Source of the DNA: Scytonema millei VB511283
Lineage (GTDB): Bacteria; Cyanobacteriota; Cyanobacteriia; Cyanobacteriales; Chroococcidiopsidaceae
Direction of reading: 5' to 3'
DNA: 64,000 nucleotides
Assembly: GCF_000817735.3 (NCBI RefSeq)
Contig: NZ_JTJC03000001.1
Coordinates: forward strand, 124,001 to 188,000
A program made the position numbers and the translations under genes. Under the pieces are notes generated by a model. It saw only the letters and a list, made by a program, of their open reading frames with translations. It did no database searches and was not told the DNA's origin. Shown here piece after piece: positions 11,993-45,203 of this stretch (the stretch's first letter is position 1; the number at the start of each line of letters is the position of its first letter).

Positions 11993-13379
11993 GGAAAATC
12001 GAGCAACCCGCGTTATTTTAGTACGCCACGGGCAGAGTACTTACAATGCCCTCGGTCTCTACCAAGGTAGCAGCGATGAGTCAGTATTAACTGAAGTAGG
12101 GCGTAGCGACGCGCGTTTAACTGGCGATTTTCTCAAAGGAGTAGTATTTGATGCTATCTACTCCAGTTCTTTAAAACGGGTGCAGGAAACTGCCAAAGAG
12201 ATTGTGAGAGTCATCTCCCCCCATATCCAAATAAGGGTGACAGACAAGTTACGCGAAACCGATCTCCCGGCATGGCAAGGATTGTCATTTCAATACGTGC
12301 GCGAAAACTTCGCCCAGGAATATCGCCTTTGGAAGCAACACCCCCATTTATTCGAGATGGAGTTACGTGCTGTCGGTGAGACAGTAGGCAGACAAAGGGA
12401 GAAGAGAGCTGGGGAAGTTGGGGAAGCAACTCAAAATTCAAAATTCAAAATTCAAAATTCAAAATTCATTCCGAATTCTCCCCACTACACCCCACACCCC
12501 ACACCCTACACCCCGTCAACCGTCAACTGTCAACCGTCTTCACGCAGTGTAGCGTCAACCGTCAACCGTCAACTGTCAACCATCAACTGTCAACCCCAAA
12601 AATTCTTTCCCGCTCTCGATTTATATCAAAGGGTGCGAGAGTTTTGGCAAGAAATATTACCGCGCCACAGGGGACAAACCGTTTTACTCGTGACTCATGG
12701 CGGAACCAACCGCGCCTTGATAAGCACGGCTTTGGGAATTAAACCCGATCGCTATCATTGCATTCAGCAGTCTAACTGCGGCATCAGCGTTCTAAATTTT
12801 CCTGACGGTTTTCTGGAGTCAGGGCAATTGGAAGCAATGAATTTAAATACTCATGTAGGAGAACACTTACCCAAGCCTCAAGAAGGGGGTAAAGGTTTAC
12901 GGCTGTTGCTCGTACCTTCTGGGACAAATGCAGTACAAACTCAAAGCATAGCTAAGTTTCTTAAACAAGTGCGAATCGACTTTAGCCTCAATAGCATACT
13001 TGACTCCTACCACATTACGGTGCAACAAATTCTGCAACACCATCCAGAAACGGTACAGTTTGAGGTATTGCGAGAAGATATTCCTGAAGCTTGGCAAACA
13101 GTCATTAGTAAAAGAAGTAAGACTAGTTCCGAGCAATTGACGACTGGTTTAGTTATGGCAAGTGAAGATGCGATCGCTCGTTTAATCGGTCATATTTTCG
13201 GTACAAATTCAAATAGTTCTGAACGAATATTAGTTAAAAAAGGAACGATAAGTTGTTTGCAATATCCAGGCGATCGCCATCCACTAATTTTACAGGCAAT
13301 GAATATTTTAACTAATCAAAATGACTTGATTCATAAATCAGATTTAGGGTGGTCAATGTCCAACACAATAACTTTTTAA
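11976..13379 (+). CDS. Histidine phosphatase (phosphoglycerate-mutase superfamily) with repeat-encoded insert
   Basis: 467 residues from ATG 11976, chosen because AGGAGA lies five bases upstream; the gene overlaps the ABC exporter by 17 bases. The catalytic RHG motif is VRHGQSTYN (H18) and the second catalytic histidine is in LLVTHGGTNR at about 229-238. Between them, residues about 135-208 are encoded by intergenic-type repeats: five TCAAAAT heptamers (12431-12465), a CACCCCA run, and GTCAACC units (12515-12538 and 12554-12595). The frame stays open throughout. A C-terminal region of about 180 residues (LRLLLVPSGTNAVQTQS onward) is conserved-looking but not assigned. Either a phosphosugar phosphatase for the glycan pathway or a signalling phosphatase would fit. 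Confidence 0.85.
   Translation: MRSKHEENRATRVILVRHGQSTYNALGLYQGSSDESVLTEVGRSDARLTGDFLKGVVFDAIYSSSLKRVQETAKEIVRVISPHIQIRVTDKLRETDLPAWQGLSFQYVRENFAQEYRLWKQHPHLFEMELRAVGETVGRQREKRAGEVGEATQNSKFKIQNSKFIPNSPHYTPHPTPYTPSTVNCQPSSRSVASTVNRQLSTINCQPQKFFPALDLYQRVREFWQEILPRHRGQTVLLVTHGGTNRALISTALGIKPDRYHCIQQSNCGISVLNFPDGFLESGQLEAMNLNTHVGEHLPKPQEGGKGLRLLLVPSGTNAVQTQSIAKFLKQVRIDFSLNSILDSYHITVQQILQHHPETVQFEVLREDIPEAWQTVISKRSKTSSEQLTTGLVMASEDAIARLIGHIFGTNSNSSERILVKKGTISCLQYPGDRHPLILQAMNILTNQNDLIHKSDLGWSMSNTITF
12376..12600. repeat. Composite heptamer repeat inside the phosphatase gene
   Basis: Three tandem heptamer families lie end to end inside the coding sequence: TCAAAAT x5, CACCCCA-type, and GTCAACC-type. 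The GTCAACC run is interrupted by CGTCTTCACGCAGTGTAGCG, a spacer that reappears in related form (reverse complement) in the intergenic tract at 17150-17205, so the block looks copied from an intergenic mosaic. Confidence 0.8.
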
Positions 13380-18109: not shown

Positions 18110-19462
18110 TCAACATGAAATCTGTGCCAACAGTGCCGTACCATAAGCTGCCTCTGCGTGCGCTGACTGCGCCACAGGCACGCCTAAATGTCTAGCTCGA
18201 ATTTGACTCCAAACAGCATTTTTCGCTCCGCCTCCAGCCGTGTAGACGCATCTCAAGGGAGTTGCTCCGAGCTGCTGCAATAATTGATATCCCCGTGCTT
18301 CGATCCGTGCCATACTCTCCAATAATCCGTGTAGAAACTCAACCGGATTTTCTGGACGGGGTTCTAGTCGCGGTGGCAAATGAGGATCGTTAATCGGAAA
18401 GCGATCGCCTGCTTTGAGTAAAGGATAGTAATCTAGAAGACTTTCGCGATCGGGATCGATCTGACCGCTCAGCGTTTCTAACTCTGCATCTGTAAAAAAG
18501 TGCCGTAACACAGCTCCACCAGTATTGGAAGCCCCACCAGTCAACCACAAATCGCCGAGTCGATGGCTGTAAATTCCAGATTGGGCATCTTCCACCCGCG
18601 TCTGACTGAGTAATTTGAGTACCAAAGTCGAACCCAACGATGTCACTGCTTCTCCAGGGGAGTTGGCTCCACTAGCTAGAAACGCAGCAATACTATCTGT
18701 CGTCCCAGCACGTACCACACAGCCTTGCGGCAACCCAAACCGCGATCGCACCTCTGCCGTCACCTCTCCTACAGGCGTGCCAGGAGCGAGTATCTGGGGC
18801 AAATTTGGCAGTGCAGGCAATTTCAACAACAATTTCAACAACCAGTCAGGATAACATAACTGTTCCACGTCATATCCCAACTTTAGAGCGTTATGATAGT
18901 CACTCACTCCTAGCTGTCCGTGTAATAGAAAACTGAGCCAGTCGGCTTGGTGTAGGAAATATATTTCCTCTTGTGAGGGAGTCGGGAGTCGGGAGTCGGG
19001 AGAGTGGCTAGTGGCTAGTGGCTGGTGGTTAGTGGCGCGTGGTTTTTCTTCCTCAGCCTCCTCAGCTCCCTCAGCTTTCTTCTGCCACCACAACAACTTT
19101 GCCAAACTGGACGTAGCGCCGATCGCAACGTGATGGGGAGGAGCGATCGCGCGTAACTCTTCCATGACGGCAATGCCGCGATCGTCGTTATAAAGTAGTG
19201 GTGCAACGATTGGATTGCCTGTCGCGTCACACAGTAGGACAGTGGAAGAAGTCCCATCAATCGCGATCGCCTCTATTTTCTGCCGTAGTTCTAATGGCAG
19301 TTGCTCTAGTAAGCAAAACAATCCCGTCTGCCATTGAGCGGGTGCAGTTGCTAATTCTGCCCCTGTAAAAATATGCTTGGCTTCTGCCAGAGTCTCGCCT
19401 GTGGCATCGATTGCCACGGCTCTAGCGCCAGAAGTCCCAAAATCGATTCCCAGAGAAATCAT
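18110..19462 (-). CDS. FGGY-family sugar kinase (ribulokinase/xylulokinase-like, SePSK type)
   Basis: 450 residues. The N-terminal ATPase motif is LGIDFGTSGARAVAIDATG, the substrate/hinge segment FLHQADWLSFLLHG is present, and the second domain has TAGGGAKNAVWSQIRA. Closest remembered relatives are cyanobacterial D-ribulose kinase-like proteins of about 425 residues. The extra length is explained by residues about 128-162, encoded by GGGAGTC (18977-18997), GTGGCTA (19004-19031) and CTCAGCTCC-type units, inserted between LLWWQ and EIYFLHQADWL. It should phosphorylate a free sugar or sugar alcohol; the exact substrate is uncertain. A 9-bp repeat tract lies upstream. Confidence 0.85.
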   Translation of the reverse strand: MISLGIDFGTSGARAVAIDATGETLAEAKHIFTGAELATAPAQWQTGLFCLLEQLPLELRQKIEAIAIDGTSSTVLLCDATGNPIVAPLLYNDDRGIAVMEELRAIAPPHHVAIGATSSLAKLLWWQKKAEGAEEAEEEKPRATNHQPLATSHSPDSRLPTPSQEEIYFLHQADWLSFLLHGQLGVSDYHNALKLGYDVEQLCYPDWLLKLLLKLPALPNLPQILAPGTPVGEVTAEVRSRFGLPQGCVVRAGTTDSIAAFLASGANSPGEAVTSLGSTLVLKLLSQTRVEDAQSGIYSHRLGDLWLTGGASNTGGAVLRHFFTDAELETLSGQIDPDRESLLDYYPLLKAGDRFPINDPHLPPRLEPRPENPVEFLHGLLESMARIEARGYQLLQQLGATPLRCVYTAGGGAKNAVWSQIRARHLGVPVAQSAHAEAAYGTALLAQISC

Positions 19463-25240: not shown

Positions 25241-26951
25241 GACTCCCTAATAAAGGTGCAGCTGCCAATAGCGTTTGGGTATAAGGATGCTGAGGATTGT
25301 TAAAGATAGCTTGAGTCGTATCGATTTCGACAATCTGACCGCTATTCATCACAGCAATGCGATCGCATAAAAATCGAGCTACCCATAAGTCATGGGTAAT
25401 AAATAAATAAGTTAGATCGAACTCTCGCTTTAATTCCAGCATTAAATCGAGTACCTGAGCTTGGATGCTAGCATCAAGCATACTGACAGGTTCGTCACAA
25501 ATTATCAGTCGCGGACGAGTAATCAACGCACGGGCGATCGCGACTCGCTGCTGTTGTCCGCCAGATAGTTCGCTAGGATAGCGGCTGTAGTAATTCTCTA
25601 GTGGAGTTAGTCCGACGCGCTTCAGCATTGCCATGACCTGCTCTTTTGCTTCCGCAGGATTAGCTATTTGATGAATCAACAAAGGCTCGGCAATATTCTG
25701 TCCCACTGTCATTGTTGGATTAAGACAAGCATGGGGATCTTGAAAGATCATTTGCATCTGTCGGCGAGAAAGGCGTAGCTCTTGTCGCGACAAAGTAGTT
25801 AAATCCGTGCCTTGCCACTCTACTTTTCCCGATGTAGGACGAGCTAACTGCAATATTGTTCTAGATAAAGTACTCTTACCACAACCCGATTCTCCAACTA
25901 ATCCCAAAATTTCCCCAGGGAAAAGTTCCAAATTTATGCCATCTACAGCCTTAATTGTCTGGTCTTCAACCTTAAACAACCGCTCAATAAAATTGCTTTC
26001 TAAGCTGTAATACTGTTTGAGATCGGTAATTTTGAGAATTGGTAATTGGTAATTGGTAGTTGGTAGTTGGTGAGTGGCTGGTGGCTGGTGGCTGGAATTG
26101 CTTCCTTGTCCCCCTTGTCCCCCTGCTCCCTGCTCCCTGCTCCCTGCTCCCTGCTCCCCATGAATATGCAAAGCCGCCTGCAAAAGCGATCGCGTGTATT
26201 CGTGTTGGGGTTGCCGAAATACTGTTTGGGAGGAACCAGTTTCGACTAATTCTCCGTCGTGCATTACGCCAATGCGATCGCAGTATTCTCCCACCAGTGC
26301 CAGATCGTGAGAAATCAATAACAAAGCCATGTCCCGCTCGCGACATAGGCGCATCAGTTCTTTTAAGATTTGCGCCGCTACGGTTACATCTAGACTAGTT
26401 GTTGGTTCGTCGGCAATAATTAATTTGGGATCGAGCATCAAAGCTAGGGCGATCGCCACCCTTTGGCGCATTCCACCGCTAAATTCATGTGGATATTGAT
26501 GCCAGCGATTTTCGGGAATTTTCACGGCGGCGAGAGTGGCGATCGCTTTATCCCTTAGTTCTCGTTCTGACAGTTGGGGTTGGTGCGCCCTTAGAGTTTC
26601 CACGCAGTGCTTGCCAATCGTCATCAGCGGATCGAGGCGCGTCATCGGATCTTGAAATACCAGTGCTACTGCTTCCCCGCGAAATTGCCGCATCTGGGTA
26701 GGCGTGAAATCTAATACCGATCTATCCTCAAACATGACTTTGCCATTCACGCGGCTGGCGGTTGGTAACAGGCGCATTACAGCCCGCCCTAGAGTCGATT
26801 TACCGCAACCTGACTCCCCCACCAGCCCCAGGCGTTCGCCCCGTTGCAGCGTCAGAGAAACGCCGTTGACAGCCCATTGCAGATTTTCCCAATCTTTTTG
26901 GTGTGGATAGGCAACTTTGAGATTGTCGATACAAAGTAGAGCTTGGCTCAT
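25236..26951 (-). CDS. Double ATPase subunit of a peptide/oligopeptide-type ABC importer (DppD-DppF fusion)
   Basis: 571 residues with two complete nucleotide-binding domains: Walker A GESGCGKST, signature FSGGMRQR and Walker B LIIADEPT in the first; [17 protein letters not shown] and LIICDEPV in the second. It is like GsiA/YejF fusions serving dipeptide or oligopeptide importers. No permease or binding-protein gene is adjacent, so partners must lie elsewhere. The interdomain linker (about residues 264-305) is built from CTGCTCC (five perfect copies, 26123-26157), GTGGCTG and GGTAATT heptamers. TTATCAG repeats lie immediately before ATG 26951, where a ribosome site would be expected. Confidence 0.9.
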   Translation of the reverse strand: MSQALLCIDNLKVAYPHQKDWENLQWAVNGVSLTLQRGERLGLVGESGCGKSTLGRAVMRLLPTASRVNGKVMFEDRSVLDFTPTQMRQFRGEAVALVFQDPMTRLDPLMTIGKHCVETLRAHQPQLSERELRDKAIATLAAVKIPENRWHQYPHEFSGGMRQRVAIALALMLDPKLIIADEPTTSLDVTVAAQILKELMRLCRERDMALLLISHDLALVGEYCDRIGVMHDGELVETGSSQTVFRQPQHEYTRSLLQAALHIHGEQGAGSREQGAGGQGGQGSNSSHQPPATHQLPTTNYQLPILKITDLKQYYSLESNFIERLFKVEDQTIKAVDGINLELFPGEILGLVGESGCGKSTLSRTILQLARPTSGKVEWQGTDLTTLSRQELRLSRRQMQMIFQDPHACLNPTMTVGQNIAEPLLIHQIANPAEAKEQVMAMLKRVGLTPLENYYSRYPSELSGGQQQRVAIARALITRPRLIICDEPVSMLDASIQAQVLDLMLELKREFDLTYLFITHDLWVARFLCDRIAVMNSGQIVEIDTTQAIFNNPQHPYTQTLLAAAPLLGSR

Positions 26952-41040: not shown

Positions 41041-42624
41041 GTGCTGTATTTAGCAGAAGTACAAAAGCAAAAAGCTTTTATGGGTCTGAAGACAGAAATC
41101 AAGCTGCTGGCATTTCAAAGAGCTGACCAGAGTTGGTCTTCTGTACAGGGAGAAGAGATTGTTGCAGCTGAGGAAGCAAACAATCTCAATGCTGGAGCGC
41201 TGATATTAGCTGACTTAAATGCCAATCGACAAGTACAACGCATTCAAGAGGCAGGGCGACCTTTAGTTAGCATCTTAAGTGGTTTCTCCCGCCAAATTGA
41301 AAAGGCGAAGCTTCAGGAAGAAGAAATCGAGCAGTGGAAGGAATCTCTCACCTTTCAAAGGGATGAGATGTCCCGCCGCCACGAAGAAATGGAAATACGT
41401 TTGGAAGAGTTGGAACACATCGAGGAGGAATATAGGCGATTACAGAGCAGCCAGTCGGTAGGATTGGACGAAACAACTGTTAGCCAAGTTGAAGAATTGC
41501 TCGAACGCTTATCTCAAGGCTTACCACCGACTACAGCAGTCAGGCAAGAACTAACCTTGGCTCTAGAATTGGTAGAGACCCAGCAAGCGACCTTGAGTCC
41601 GCATTGGCAGAAACTAGAACAGCAAAAGCAAGCGATCGACCAGCAGCAGTTAGAAGTTGATAGCCAAACTCAGAGATTACAGCAAGGTCAACAGCAGTGG
41701 TCGGAAACACAAAAATCTCTAGAACAGCGAAAAGTCAAACTACAAGCGCAAGCGGTGGTGTTGCAAGCCAAGCAAGAATACGCTCAAACCCTCAACGCAC
41801 ATCAACGCCATCAAGAAGATTTACATCAGCAACTGAATCGTTTGATCCAACCTGTCGATGATTTTCTCTTCAGCCAGCAAGTTGATTCTGCTGCGTTAGA
41901 ACAAATGCCTTTAGATCAACTGCAGCAAGTGGTACAAGATTTGCGGCGAGATTGGGAGAATGCTTGTCAGTTTGTCCACGAGCAAGAAGAGGAACTCAGA
42001 GCTAATCAACAGGCAATTGATGAAATTAAGGGGCGCTTGAGCCGAGCTGCTAGCGACGGGGAACGGGCGAATATAGAAGCAGAACTAAAAGACGAACAAG
42101 ACAGTTATGAATTTCTGCTGCAAACCTTGATGGGTCAACGCCAAAATTTACAAGATCGCAAAGAAACTTTACGACAACACCAAACTATATTGTGGAGACG
42201 GCAGGGAATTCCAGTTGGCAATCGAGAAGGAGATTATAAATTAGATTTAGATCCACTATTAAGTCAAATTCAGTCGCAAAAACAACAGCAATCCCTAATA
42301 CTGCAACAGCTAGAAAAGGAAATCGAGCAGATGCGCTCTGGATTTGACTTAGAGCAGGGAATGCTCGATCGGCAGGTGCAAGAACAGGAAAGACAGTGGC
42401 AGCAATTACAGACTTGGCAGCAAGAGTTGCTATCTTTGCGATCGCTGGCTGCCGATTGTAGCGGTAGAATAAATCTTTATAAAGAAATCCTCCGACCAGT
42501 ACAAGATAGTTTGGATGGACTGCGACAGAAATTACAAGGAGTGGCGGGCATACTGAGCGTAGAAGCTAGCGAACCACCACAAGCAGCGATCGCTCAAATT
42601 CGCGCCAAAATTACGAGAAACTGA
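41041..42624 (+). CDS. hmpF: Long coiled-coil pilus-control protein HmpF
   Basis: 527 residues from a GTG start with AGAGGA eight bases upstream. The N-terminal 90 residues are globular and characteristic (MLYLAEVQKQKAFMGLKTEI, DQSWSSVQGEEIVAAEEANN). The rest is almost continuous Gln/Glu/Leu-rich coiled coil (about 95-510) with heptad spacing. It resembles HmpF, which in Nostoc punctiforme localises dynamically to cell poles and activates type IV pili; that function is family knowledge. The divergent position beside hmpA supports the assignment. Confidence 0.78.
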   Translation: MLYLAEVQKQKAFMGLKTEIKLLAFQRADQSWSSVQGEEIVAAEEANNLNAGALILADLNANRQVQRIQEAGRPLVSILSGFSRQIEKAKLQEEEIEQWKESLTFQRDEMSRRHEEMEIRLEELEHIEEEYRRLQSSQSVGLDETTVSQVEELLERLSQGLPPTTAVRQELTLALELVETQQATLSPHWQKLEQQKQAIDQQQLEVDSQTQRLQQGQQQWSETQKSLEQRKVKLQAQAVVLQAKQEYAQTLNAHQRHQEDLHQQLNRLIQPVDDFLFSQQVDSAALEQMPLDQLQQVVQDLRRDWENACQFVHEQEEELRANQQAIDEIKGRLSRAASDGERANIEAELKDEQDSYEFLLQTLMGQRQNLQDRKETLRQHQTILWRRQGIPVGNREGDYKLDLDPLLSQIQSQKQQQSLILQQLEKEIEQMRSGFDLEQGMLDRQVQEQERQWQQLQTWQQELLSLRSLAADCSGRINLYKEILRPVQDSLDGLRQKLQGVAGILSVEASEPPQAAIAQIRAKITRN

Positions 42625-42732
42625 TAAAAAAAGTCAAAAATCAGAAGTCAAAAGTCAAAAACTTAACGCTATAAGCATTTTGTATTGCGGCTTACTGGTG
42701 GCTGATTTCTGCCATGCTGCACTATGTTTAAT

Positions 42733-43929
42733 TTATTTTAACCAAATCCAATCTTTGTCTACTGTGGCGATCGCACCGCCAGGAAAAGGATCTGTTTGCG
42801 TTCCGTTTGGAGCTGCAATCAAAGCCATAAGCTTTTCAATCTGCTCGAAGTTAGGAGAGCAACATAAAGTTTGCTGCAAAATCTGCCGCATCACGCGCCG
42901 TTGTAGAGCAATGTGGGCTGTTTGTAGAATGCGGCGGTTGATTTTTATGAGGGAGTTGGGAGTCGGGAGGAGCCAGTTGCGTGCGGGGGTGTCCCCCGTT
43001 GAGCAAACTGGCGTTCGGGAGTCGGAGAATATTAGATTTTGGATTTTGGATTTCGGATTGTTCCTCTGCCCCTCTGCTCCTCTGCCCCTCTGCTCCCTTG
43101 CTTCCTTGTCCCCCTGTCCCCTTTTCCCTTTGTCTTCCCAATCGACAGCAAGCTGTCGCAACTCATCGGCTGCTCGTTCGAGATATTCGACTTCTGCTTG
43201 TAAAAGCTCCGCAGTTTGAGCTAGGGTTAGCTCTACTTGAGAGTTGAAGTGGGTTTGGATGTAGGGCAACAATTCTTGTCGGATGCGGTTACGGGCATAT
43301 TTGAGGTCTAAGTTAGTTGTATCTTCCCATACCTGAAGTTGCCGCTCTTGGCAAAATCGAGCGGTTTCAGTTCGCGTAACTTCTAAGAGGGGACGTACTA
43401 GTAGGGGTACGTAGCTTTGCGTCCCTACATGCAGAGGGCGTTGCCAAGTTAAAGCTTGCAAGCCATCTGCACCACTACCGCGAATTAAATTGTATAGTAA
43501 GGTTTCGGCGCGATCGCTGGCTGTGTGTCCCGTAGTGATAGAGGGGTAATTATGCGTTTGAGCGATCGCGGCTAGAGTTTGATAGCGCCATTGTCGTGCG
43601 GCTGCTTCATTGAGTAGAGGCTGCTCGGCTGTATGGCAATAAAAAGGAACTGCCCAATGTTGAGCTAATCGCGCCACAAAGTCAGCGTTAGCCTGAGAGT
43701 CAGAACGCCAACGATGATCGCAGTGAGCAATTCCTATGTGCCATTCCCACTTGGGTTGTAAATCTAAGAGTAATTGGACGAGGCATAAAGAATCTTGTCC
43801 GCCAGATACAGCGACGAGCAATCGCTGACGCTTCTCCAAGAGATGACGCGATCGCAGGGTACGATGTAGGCGGGCGTGAAGCGGAGTCCAGTTAGCGTGA
43901 CTCATCTTAGTTGGTTTTTTGTCTGTCAC
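42733..43929 (-). CDS. tilS: tRNA(Ile)-lysidine synthetase with two repeat-derived inserts
   Basis: 398 residues. The PP-loop ATP motif is VSGGQDSLC (S42-S47), followed by HCDHRWRSDS and GHTASDRAETLLYNLIRGSG, all diagnostic of TilS, which modifies C34 of tRNA-Ile(CAU) to lysidine. Two in-frame insertions are visible: about residues 167-176 from the palindrome 43401-43428, and about 265-327 (bases 42948-43135) from heptamers, CTCTGCCC-type units and the hairpin 42972-43012. As TilS is essential, these inserts must be tolerated. The GTG start abuts the ccsB stop; ATG 43905 is the alternative start. Confidence 0.9.
   Translation of the reverse strand: MTDKKPTKMSHANWTPLHARLHRTLRSRHLLEKRQRLLVAVSGGQDSLCLVQLLLDLQPKWEWHIGIAHCDHRWRSDSQANADFVARLAQHWAVPFYCHTAEQPLLNEAAARQWRYQTLAAIAQTHNYPSITTGHTASDRAETLLYNLIRGSGADGLQALTWQRPLHVGTQSYVPLLVRPLLEVTRTETARFCQERQLQVWEDTTNLDLKYARNRIRQELLPYIQTHFNSQVELTLAQTAELLQAEVEYLERAADELRQLAVDWEDKGKRGQGDKEAREQRGRGAEGQRNNPKSKIQNLIFSDSRTPVCSTGDTPARNWLLPTPNSLIKINRRILQTAHIALQRRVMRQILQQTLCCSPNFEQIEKLMALIAAPNGTQTDPFPGGAIATVDKDWIWLK
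42948..43135. repeat. Composite repeat insert inside tilS
   Basis: It contains GGGAGTC units, a nested hairpin at 42972-43012 (GCCAGTT/AACTGGC outside, CGGGGG/CCCCCG inside), ATTTTGG units near 43034, and CTCTGCCCCT/CTTGTCCCC runs. All also occur in intergenic gaps. Confidence 0.8.
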
Positions 43930-45012
43930 TTAAAAAAACCAACCGTAAGAATGCAAACCTTTACCTAAAAGATTCACACCCAGATAGCAAACCCAAACGA
44001 TGACGAAACCAGTTGCAGCTAGAATGGCTGGGCGACGACCTTGCCAACCACGGGTAATACGGGCGTGAAGATAGGCAGCAAATACTAACCAAGCAATCAA
44101 CGCCCATGTCTCTTTCGGGTCCCAACTCCAGTAAGAACCCCAAGCCTCGTTAGCCCAAACTGCACCCGCAATAATACCGATTGTTAGTAAAGGAAAGCCG
44201 AGTCCAATGGTGCGATAGCTAATGTTGTCTAAGGTTTCGGCAAGACTGAGGCGTTGGGGAGAGAGTGTGAGGGAGTCGGCAGCCGATAGGGGCGCACTGC
44301 TGTGTGCCCGTACAGAAGAGTCGGGAGTAGAGGATGTCATAACATTGAGAACAGCAGTTTTACCGTTTCCATTAGTTTCTAGCATTAAAGGATTAGAAGC
44401 ATCGGCAGCAACTGCTGGAGAAAGTTGAGTTAGATCGGTATTGCGTTGGAGACGATAGCCGTTTTGTCGATAACCTCCAGTACCAACAGAACTACCATGC
44501 AATTCAATTTCTTTGCCACCAGAAACGATCAAAAAGGCGATCGCTAGCAGAGAACCTACAAGTAAAGCAGCATAACTCAGCATCATGACGCTAACATGCA
44601 TCATTAACCAATTAGACTTGAGGGCAGGGACGAGGGGGGCAGAGGTTTGCATATCTGATGGTAAAGTCAAAGCTGCAAAAGCAGCGATACCCATAGCAAC
44701 AGGAGCGGTGAAAACTCCTACCAATCGGCTACGGCTGCTACTTTCCGCGATCAGATGAACCGCAGTTACTCCCCAAGCAAGGAAAAATAGAGATTCATAA
44801 AGATTGCTAATCGGAAAATACCCAGCTTCCAGCCATCTTGCTCCTAACAGAGTCGCAATACATAAATTAGCGATCGCCATTCCCGCCGTACCCACAGTTG
44901 GGAGAAAGCGCAGCCCTGGAAAAGCCGCTCCAACCCAATAGACTAACATTGTCAGAAATAGGACGGCAAACGAGGCATTGTCCAGCCAATTCTGAAGTAA
45001 AACCAAATTCAT
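43930..45012 (-). CDS. ccsB: Cytochrome c biogenesis protein CcsB (CcsA/ResC type)
   Basis: 360 residues from ATG 45012 with AGGAGA nine bases before it. Several membrane segments are visible ([34 protein letters not shown]), and near the C-terminus the haem-handling WWD-like motif [18 protein letters not shown]. It works with Ccs1 in system II to attach haem to apocytochromes on the p-side of the thylakoid membrane. Residues about 222-251 ([20 protein letters not shown]) come from the palindrome 44287-44312 and heptamer-like units, a dispersed-repeat insertion in a loop. Confidence 0.9.
44287..44312. repeat. Palindromic repeat inside ccsB
   Basis: TAGGGGCGCAC-TGCT-GTGTGCCCGTA. It matches the intergenic hairpin at 57258-57283 (TAGGGGCGCAC-GGCT-GTGCGCCCCTA) at nearly every position, so a dispersed element sits in the coding region. 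Confidence 0.75.
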
Positions 45013-45059
45013 AATCAGTGTTCTCCTATATTTTTTTGTCAAGCATCGAGAGTCTTATT

Positions 45060-45140
45060 TCGATCCTACTGGGGAACAGTTATCAGTTACCAGTTATCAG
45101 TCACCAGCGACCAGTTAATTCCGCCTCCCGACTTCCCTAC
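45060..45140. repeat. Heptamer tract upstream of ccsB
   Basis: AGTTATCAGTTACCAGTTATC-type units at 45071-45100 and CACCAGCGACCAG near 45102. It separates ccsB from the DUF3352 gene together with the element at 45141-45203. Confidence 0.7.
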
Positions 45141-45203
45141 GGGCGGGTTTAACAAATAGATTGACAGCAAGGGCTGTAAATTTTGGTGAAAACCCGCCCC
45201 TAC
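45141..45203. repeat. MITE-like inverted-repeat element, copy 2
   Basis: GGGCGGGTTT at 45141-45150 pairs with AAACCCGCCCCTAC at 45190-45203. The core AATAGATTGACAGC matches, on the opposite strand, the element at 3327-3390. It overlaps the last bases of the DUF3352 gene by four bases. Confidence 0.7.

Follow-up and report, generated by a model that had tools for sequence, protein, structure and literature searches.

Passages of PMC3733652 describe short palindromic REP sequences, tagged GTAG or CGTC, that are inserted in frame in known genes, sometimes twice per gene, with tRNA synthetase and tRNA pseudouridine synthase genes among the hosts, and they report GTAG REPs in cyanobacteria. The Rickettsia palindromic elements (RPE) discussed in the same passages carry a CGTC tag and form in-frame inserts in genes that probably stay functional. 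According to PMC6006769, REPs are also inserted within tnpA-REP in subclasses that occur in cyanobacteria. G-rich heptamers are described for Xanthomonas and Nostoc in sections of PMC4692102, where 89-93% are given as intergenic in two Xanthomonas genomes. Going by those passages of PMC3733652, in-frame insertion of REPs in genes is already published, and the tilS case presented here is a variant of it. The passages of the main text do not name tilS among the genes, and neither repeat inserts in tilS of cyanobacteria nor arrays within genes of Chroococcidiopsis are mentioned in the literature that we searched, which held few subscription papers.

The window, a stretch of 64,000 nucleotides, comprises positions 124001-188000 of contig 1 of a 5.97-Mb cyanobacterial genome (G000) with an estimated completeness of 99.95%. 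It was compared with two genomes of the same genus, G001 and G002, the latter being Chroococcidiopsis thermalis PCC 7203, as a 3-kb piece of its third contig is 100% identical to the plasmid of that strain at matching coordinates; the genus is therefore very probably Chroococcidiopsis. The features discussed below, with the evidence used to define them in brackets, are as follows.

42733..43929, minus strand: tilS, tRNA(Ile)-lysidine synthetase, 398 aa (Pfam and NCBIfam profile matches)
42946..43140, no strand: composite repeat insert in the linker between the PP-loop and TilS substrate-binding domains, about residues 263-327 (alignment with relatives, domain borders, TRF arrays)
42950..43026, plus strand: GGGAGTC heptamer array, broken by a nested hairpin (sequence; unbroken at locus L005 of G001)
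42970..43014, plus strand: element B, 45-bp nested hairpin (exactly missing from G001 tilS; fold)
43035..43059, plus strand: GATTTTG heptamer array (TRF)
43062..43098, plus strand: CCTCTGCC octamer array (TRF)
43104..43134, plus strand: CCTTGTCC octamer array (TRF)
43401..43428, no strand: element A, a decayed GTAG-type palindrome (REP) coding for a loop, about residues 167-176 (sequence, fold, family matches)
44286..44313 (about), no strand: second GTAG-family-like palindrome, in frame in ccsB, which lies at 43930-45042 on the minus strand (fold, family pattern)

Our main reading, to which we assign a probability of about 0.72, is that tilS works and carries two dispersed-repeat pieces that are kept by a permissive position and an intact frame. 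The protein matches Pfam ATP_bind_3 (PP-loop domain, 149.8 bits), the lysidine synthetase N-terminal (PP-loop) family TIGR02432 of NCBIfam (189.9 bits against a cut-off of 93.6) and, at residues 335-384, the Pfam TilS substrate-binding domain PF09179 (22.5 bits against a cut-off of 21). TilS is normally essential, and a match to it was present in all 60 genomes searched, own genome counted. The profile search of G000 returned tilS as the one PP-loop match above the family cut-off, with a weaker second match on contig 17 falling below it. For the 322 codons of the core, the three species pairs gave dS values of 0.225, 0.184 and 0.093 and dN values of 0.019, 0.023 and 0.011, with dN/dS of 0.085, 0.127 and 0.117, respectively; ratios of about 0.085-0.13 indicate a gene under purifying selection. 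The unusually long, low-complexity inserts might instead suggest a gene in decay, its function lost or taken over by another gene, but we give almost no credence to this, as the frame is open in G000, G001 and G002, core dN/dS is near 0.1 and the SGGQDS motif, which we take to be the PP-loop signature, is intact in the window. A second intact tilS and frameshifts marking a dead copy had been named in the preliminary description as observations that would overturn it; no frameshift was found, and the gene is the sole above-cut-off copy in a genome of 99.95% estimated completeness. Given one clear intact copy and a low dN/dS, a dying tilS was rejected.

The preliminary description had also located a linker insert with a nested hairpin (42972-43012) and a palindrome (43401-43428) in this gene, and these positions were confirmed. 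Alignment with relatives, one of the checks that it proposed, bore out that linker and loop are both long compared with most other TilS. The linker has 68 residues in the window and in G002 and 53 in G001; among 26 other TilS proteins its length ranges from 7 to 47 residues, with a median of 10.5. G000, G001 and G002 alike have 10 residues in the loop, which precedes LVRPLLEV; of the 26, two have 9 and 17 residues there and the remaining 24 have 4-5. These 26 are the out-of-genus members of 30 loci from the 60 genomes, minus L008; a motif filter, applied to 31 loci (the 30 and L033), dropped L008 and L033, and L033, aligned separately, has neither insert. The longest linker of the 26 belongs to a member of another family (L006), which has its own heptamer arrays there, with GGGATTG and CCCAGCC units. 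Against solved TilS structures, the loop aligns to gaps and the main block of the alignment stops just short of the linker. An AlphaFold model of the insert, built from two sequences, was poor (mean pLDDT 47.8) and was set aside. Length variation among relatives and the position of the loop in gaps of the structure alignments argue that both sites are permissive. The loop palindrome represents a net gain of 5 residues relative to most relatives, so part of the original sequence at the loop was replaced or lost.

The linker insert is repeat-derived, as previously described, but it is not one repeat: at least four repeat families contribute to this composite, and the CTCTGCC run noted earlier corresponds to the TRF array at about 43062-43098. 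Heptamer arrays of this type are known as STRR. The hairpin at 42972-43012, folded as single-stranded DNA, has a free energy of -14.9 kcal/mol (z -4.0, with 1 of 200 shuffles as good). In tilS of G001 exactly the 45 bp of B are missing and the heptamer phase is continuous across the site, while G000 and G002 have B; the junction has no target duplication and leaves the heptamer phase undisturbed. Since B amounts to 15 codons, the reading frame is kept, and five of the six frames are open through B in tilS. The inserts are most likely tolerated because the location accepts extra residues and the frame is kept; frame-breaking or badly placed copies would have been removed by selection. We envisage the linker piece as a stop-free stack of heptamers and octamers in which the 45-bp B was precisely placed, or from which it was removed, perhaps by a REP-like single-strand process, the arrays themselves spreading through slippage plus recombination. 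The loop piece is an old GTAG-type REP, a kind of unit that RAYT transposases (single-strand, HuH-Y1) presumably move, and the TilS product would be full length and active. Within tilS, G001 and G002 are the closest pair (dS 0.09 against 0.18-0.22), whereas the 400-kb comparison places all three at almost equal distances (shared-site counts 6682, 6272 and 4508). The tilS distances could fit a precise loss of B in G001, and the identity of B in G000 and G002 could fit a recent gain or recombination.

Compared with the intragenic REPs in the passages of PMC3733652, tilS has in common in-frame palindromes, two in one gene. Unlike those REPs, its larger insert is a heptamer/octamer stack with a nested hairpin that has no GTAG foot, and related species here can carry different cassettes at the same site. 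With the RPE, as far as they are covered in that part of PMC3733652, the shared feature is the in-frame palindromic insert in a probably functional gene; B mostly ends in CGT and a variable base, and hosts and sequences differ.

The loop piece is a decayed GTAG-type REP, shared by the three species that were compared within the genus. The palindrome begins with GTAG and folds weakly alone (z -1.8, 6 of 200 shuffles as good), and the sequence around it has matches at 13 further genomic places with E values of at most 1, the best being 0.001. The family pattern of element A was found 17, 7 and 14 times in the 400-kb stretches of G000, G001 and G002, respectively. Four intact A-family copies flank a RAYT-like gene at about 217 kb of C1 in G000, one of them inside the ORF, and three lie at a RAYT-like gene at about 204 kb of C1 in G002; this is the REP-RAYT arrangement described in passages of PMC3733652 and PMC6006769. 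The pattern was absent from the other 21 of the 25 RAYT-like and IS200 match loci. The gene in G000 falls short of its NCBIfam cut-off (69 bits, 80 required) and exceeds the one for Pfam Y1 (33 bits, 23 required). Its flanking GTAG palindromes and the one inside the ORF resemble the RAYT (TnpA-REP) systems in the part of PMC6006769 consulted, with the difference that the tilS palindrome is tied to this below-cut-off gene by sequence family alone. In G002, the RAYT-like gene at C1:1829371-1829874 (L267) stands beside a different GTAG palindrome family, of GTAGAGACGTTGC type. The palindrome in ccsB, the neighbour of tilS, is a third in-frame one that the preliminary description did not include; G001 and G002 have longer, different sequence at that site.

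Element B belongs to a dispersed family. Core matches with at most two mismatches numbered 27 in the window's own genome, 11 in G001 and 18 in G002, and at least one was present in 19 of the 60 genomes, against a single match of the reversed control pattern over all 60. In 39 copies (37 distinct) that were hand-picked from 65, with tandem, partial, duplicate and some ordinary copies omitted, 96% of the pair cells were standard and eight of the nine outer-stem pairs had compensatory changes; none of 500 shuffles matched the percentage or the score. For all 65 copies (54 distinct), the corresponding values were 93% paired, compensatory change in 9/9 outer-stem pairs and 0/500 shuffles. Pairing kept by compensatory changes shows that B is a structured element family. 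In 12 of 64 copies the sequences on either side of B join without any break in the 7- or 8-base phase, compared with 1 of 2000 random positions, though orthologous copies were counted separately, so the 12 cases are not independent events. A second, intergenic B, at about 196.8 kb of C1 in G002, is absent from G000 and G001; it consists of 45 bases between two TGTGGGG heptamers and has the same end bases as the tilS copy, and the length of the array around it also differs (net 52 against G001, aligned gap of 30 against G000). A cheA-like gene has B in G001 and G002 and lacks it in G000, while a penicillin-binding protein gene and a UPF0182 gene have it in G000 only. The copies examined mostly start with GGAG, GAG or AAG, with no GTAG or GTGG foot, and most finish with CGT and a variable base. 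The B core was absent from the nine RAYT-like loci (seven genes) examined, a result on which mobilisation by one of those genes was rejected, and because it has no GTAG foot and does not occur at these loci we do not file B as a canonical REP. The right end of an IS605-type element was likewise rejected as its identity: among 30 loci compared, 11 of which were without the motif and left unaligned, B stood just after the TnpB core only at L241 and L265/L236, both in G006. One copy, at about 126250 of C1 in G001 (L209), lies in a GCAAAGAC-type array within a longer element with inverted ends; this element is missing at the matching places of G000 and G002.

Arrays with 7-, 8- or 10-base units numbered 225, 174 and 173 per 400-kb stretch in G000, G001 and G002, respectively. 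ORFs were delimited by a simple greedy procedure, which leaves some imperfect; among those with 200 aa or more, 19/226, 16/228 and 13/226 hold a 7- or 8-base array at least 150 bp from both ends. G-rich tandem units of about 7 bases at many loci are a likeness to the STRR heptamers in the sections of PMC4692102, and the occurrence of such arrays well inside long ORFs is a difference. Stop-free arrays number 9.3, 9.5 and 5.5 per 100 kb within genes and 46.9, 37.0 and 30.9 per 100 kb in intergenic DNA; since arrays in ORFs are stop-free largely by definition, the densities alone were compared. Genic indels in multiples of three made up 24/53, 35/69 and 30/48, above one third and far from always; the count may be noisy owing to imperfect ORF calls and to gaps that are divided within repeats. 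Among 195 reciprocal ortholog triplets from 400 syntenic kb, 29 have an internal variable block, and recognisable repeat peptides, according to a motif list drawn up by the analyst, were present in 13 of these blocks, tilS included (13/195 triplets).

Repeat-bearing genes with family support in this stretch include NAD synthetase, two ABC transporter genes, NurA, a sugar kinase, a histidine phosphatase, RsmB and CobN, and repeat copies lie within the MurD and HypF ORFs elsewhere in the G000 genome. Several of the 13, NAD synthetase and the sugar kinase among them, have unrelated cassettes in the three species at one and the same place. The ileS gene has one site with different repeat content in each species: a B dimer in G001 (L292), other heptamers in G000 (L293) and an array alone in G002 (L294). 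The linker of gyrA has a GAATTCC-type heptamer array in G000 (C1:334911-337428) and G002, and a CACACCC array at that site in G001. In G001 the gene (C1:331912-334427, minus strand) appears split at the repeat site into overlapping ORFs of 540 and 348 aa, which may reflect a frameshift, a sequencing error or recoding; if the sequence is right, such inserts are not always harmless and can break the frame. Similar species-variable repeat segments thus occur in other important genes, and tilS is not special. The preliminary description was sound in recognising two separate, repeat-derived, in-frame insertions, but the exceptional status that it gave to tilS, as a strong natural test of how harmless insertions can be, was not supported: the two sites vary in length among relatives, and other genes hold comparable inserts.

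How the cassettes spread can also be explained without transposition, by homologous recombination or gene conversion between scattered tandem arrays with B as a passenger, an explanation that we consider plausible and place somewhat short of even odds. In its favour, tilS and a histidine-kinase gene share, at 100% identity, a 68-bp block that includes the hairpin and flanking heptamers; different arrays at the same site in different species, RAYT-like loci free of the B core and the altered array length around the second B also speak for it. Two observations are harder to accommodate, in that B keeps its end bases and its 45-base length in two array families (GGGAGTC and GTGTGGG) and at the tilS junction the phase is preserved and B is the sole difference in length.

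All three species have the composite insert, and it has changed less than core synonymous sites. Window and G002 differ at about 10 of its 195 bases, with B identical, which is below the neutral expectation from core synonymous sites (dS 0.22). The ratio of replacement to silent changes is relaxed in the insert, significantly so in one of the three species pairs (Fisher p 0.001, 0.43 and 0.07). As the insert diverges less than dS predicts and B is identical, we considered homogenisation by recombination, recent arrival or some constraint, any of which may have acted on it. A divergence lower than that of core synonymous sites in an insert shared by all three species, together with the ability of B to fold, would also be expected if the inserts were selected, with the linker peptide or an mRNA hairpin regulating TilS level or partners. 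We regard this as improbable, however, given that other genes of these genomes hold unrelated cassettes per site in different species and that the linker is short in most relatives; moreover, an Rfam scan of 42000-45200 gave no match at gathering scores, and a known structured RNA in the tilS region was rejected on that result.

Our main reading, that a working tilS carries repeat pieces at permissive sites, adds to the published REP insertions a composite array-plus-hairpin cassette with a precise empty site in tilS, and a rapid species-level turnover of cassettes at fixed sites in important genes. For the question of how REP-like units move, a normally essential gene in which a 45-bp hairpin is precisely present or absent offers a clean case. 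Natural in-frame insertions with known empty sites reveal, with no selection in the laboratory, the places at which important enzymes accept foreign peptides, and it is the wider pattern (13/195 triplets), not tilS alone, that makes the harmlessness of insertions testable across many proteins. A more speculative proposal, which we offer tentatively and think rather unlikely, is that permissive sites in important proteins act genus-wide as landing pads at which whole cassettes are swapped between close species, driven either by a mobile hairpin with a preference for tandem arrays or by the patching of DNA breaks from repeat templates. If true, such swapping would amount to a natural insertion scan of the proteome. 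Within the window, heptamer arrays inside ORFs can be seen at 12431-12595 (histidine phosphatase), 18977-19044 (FGGY kinase) and 26037-26158 (ABC transporter).
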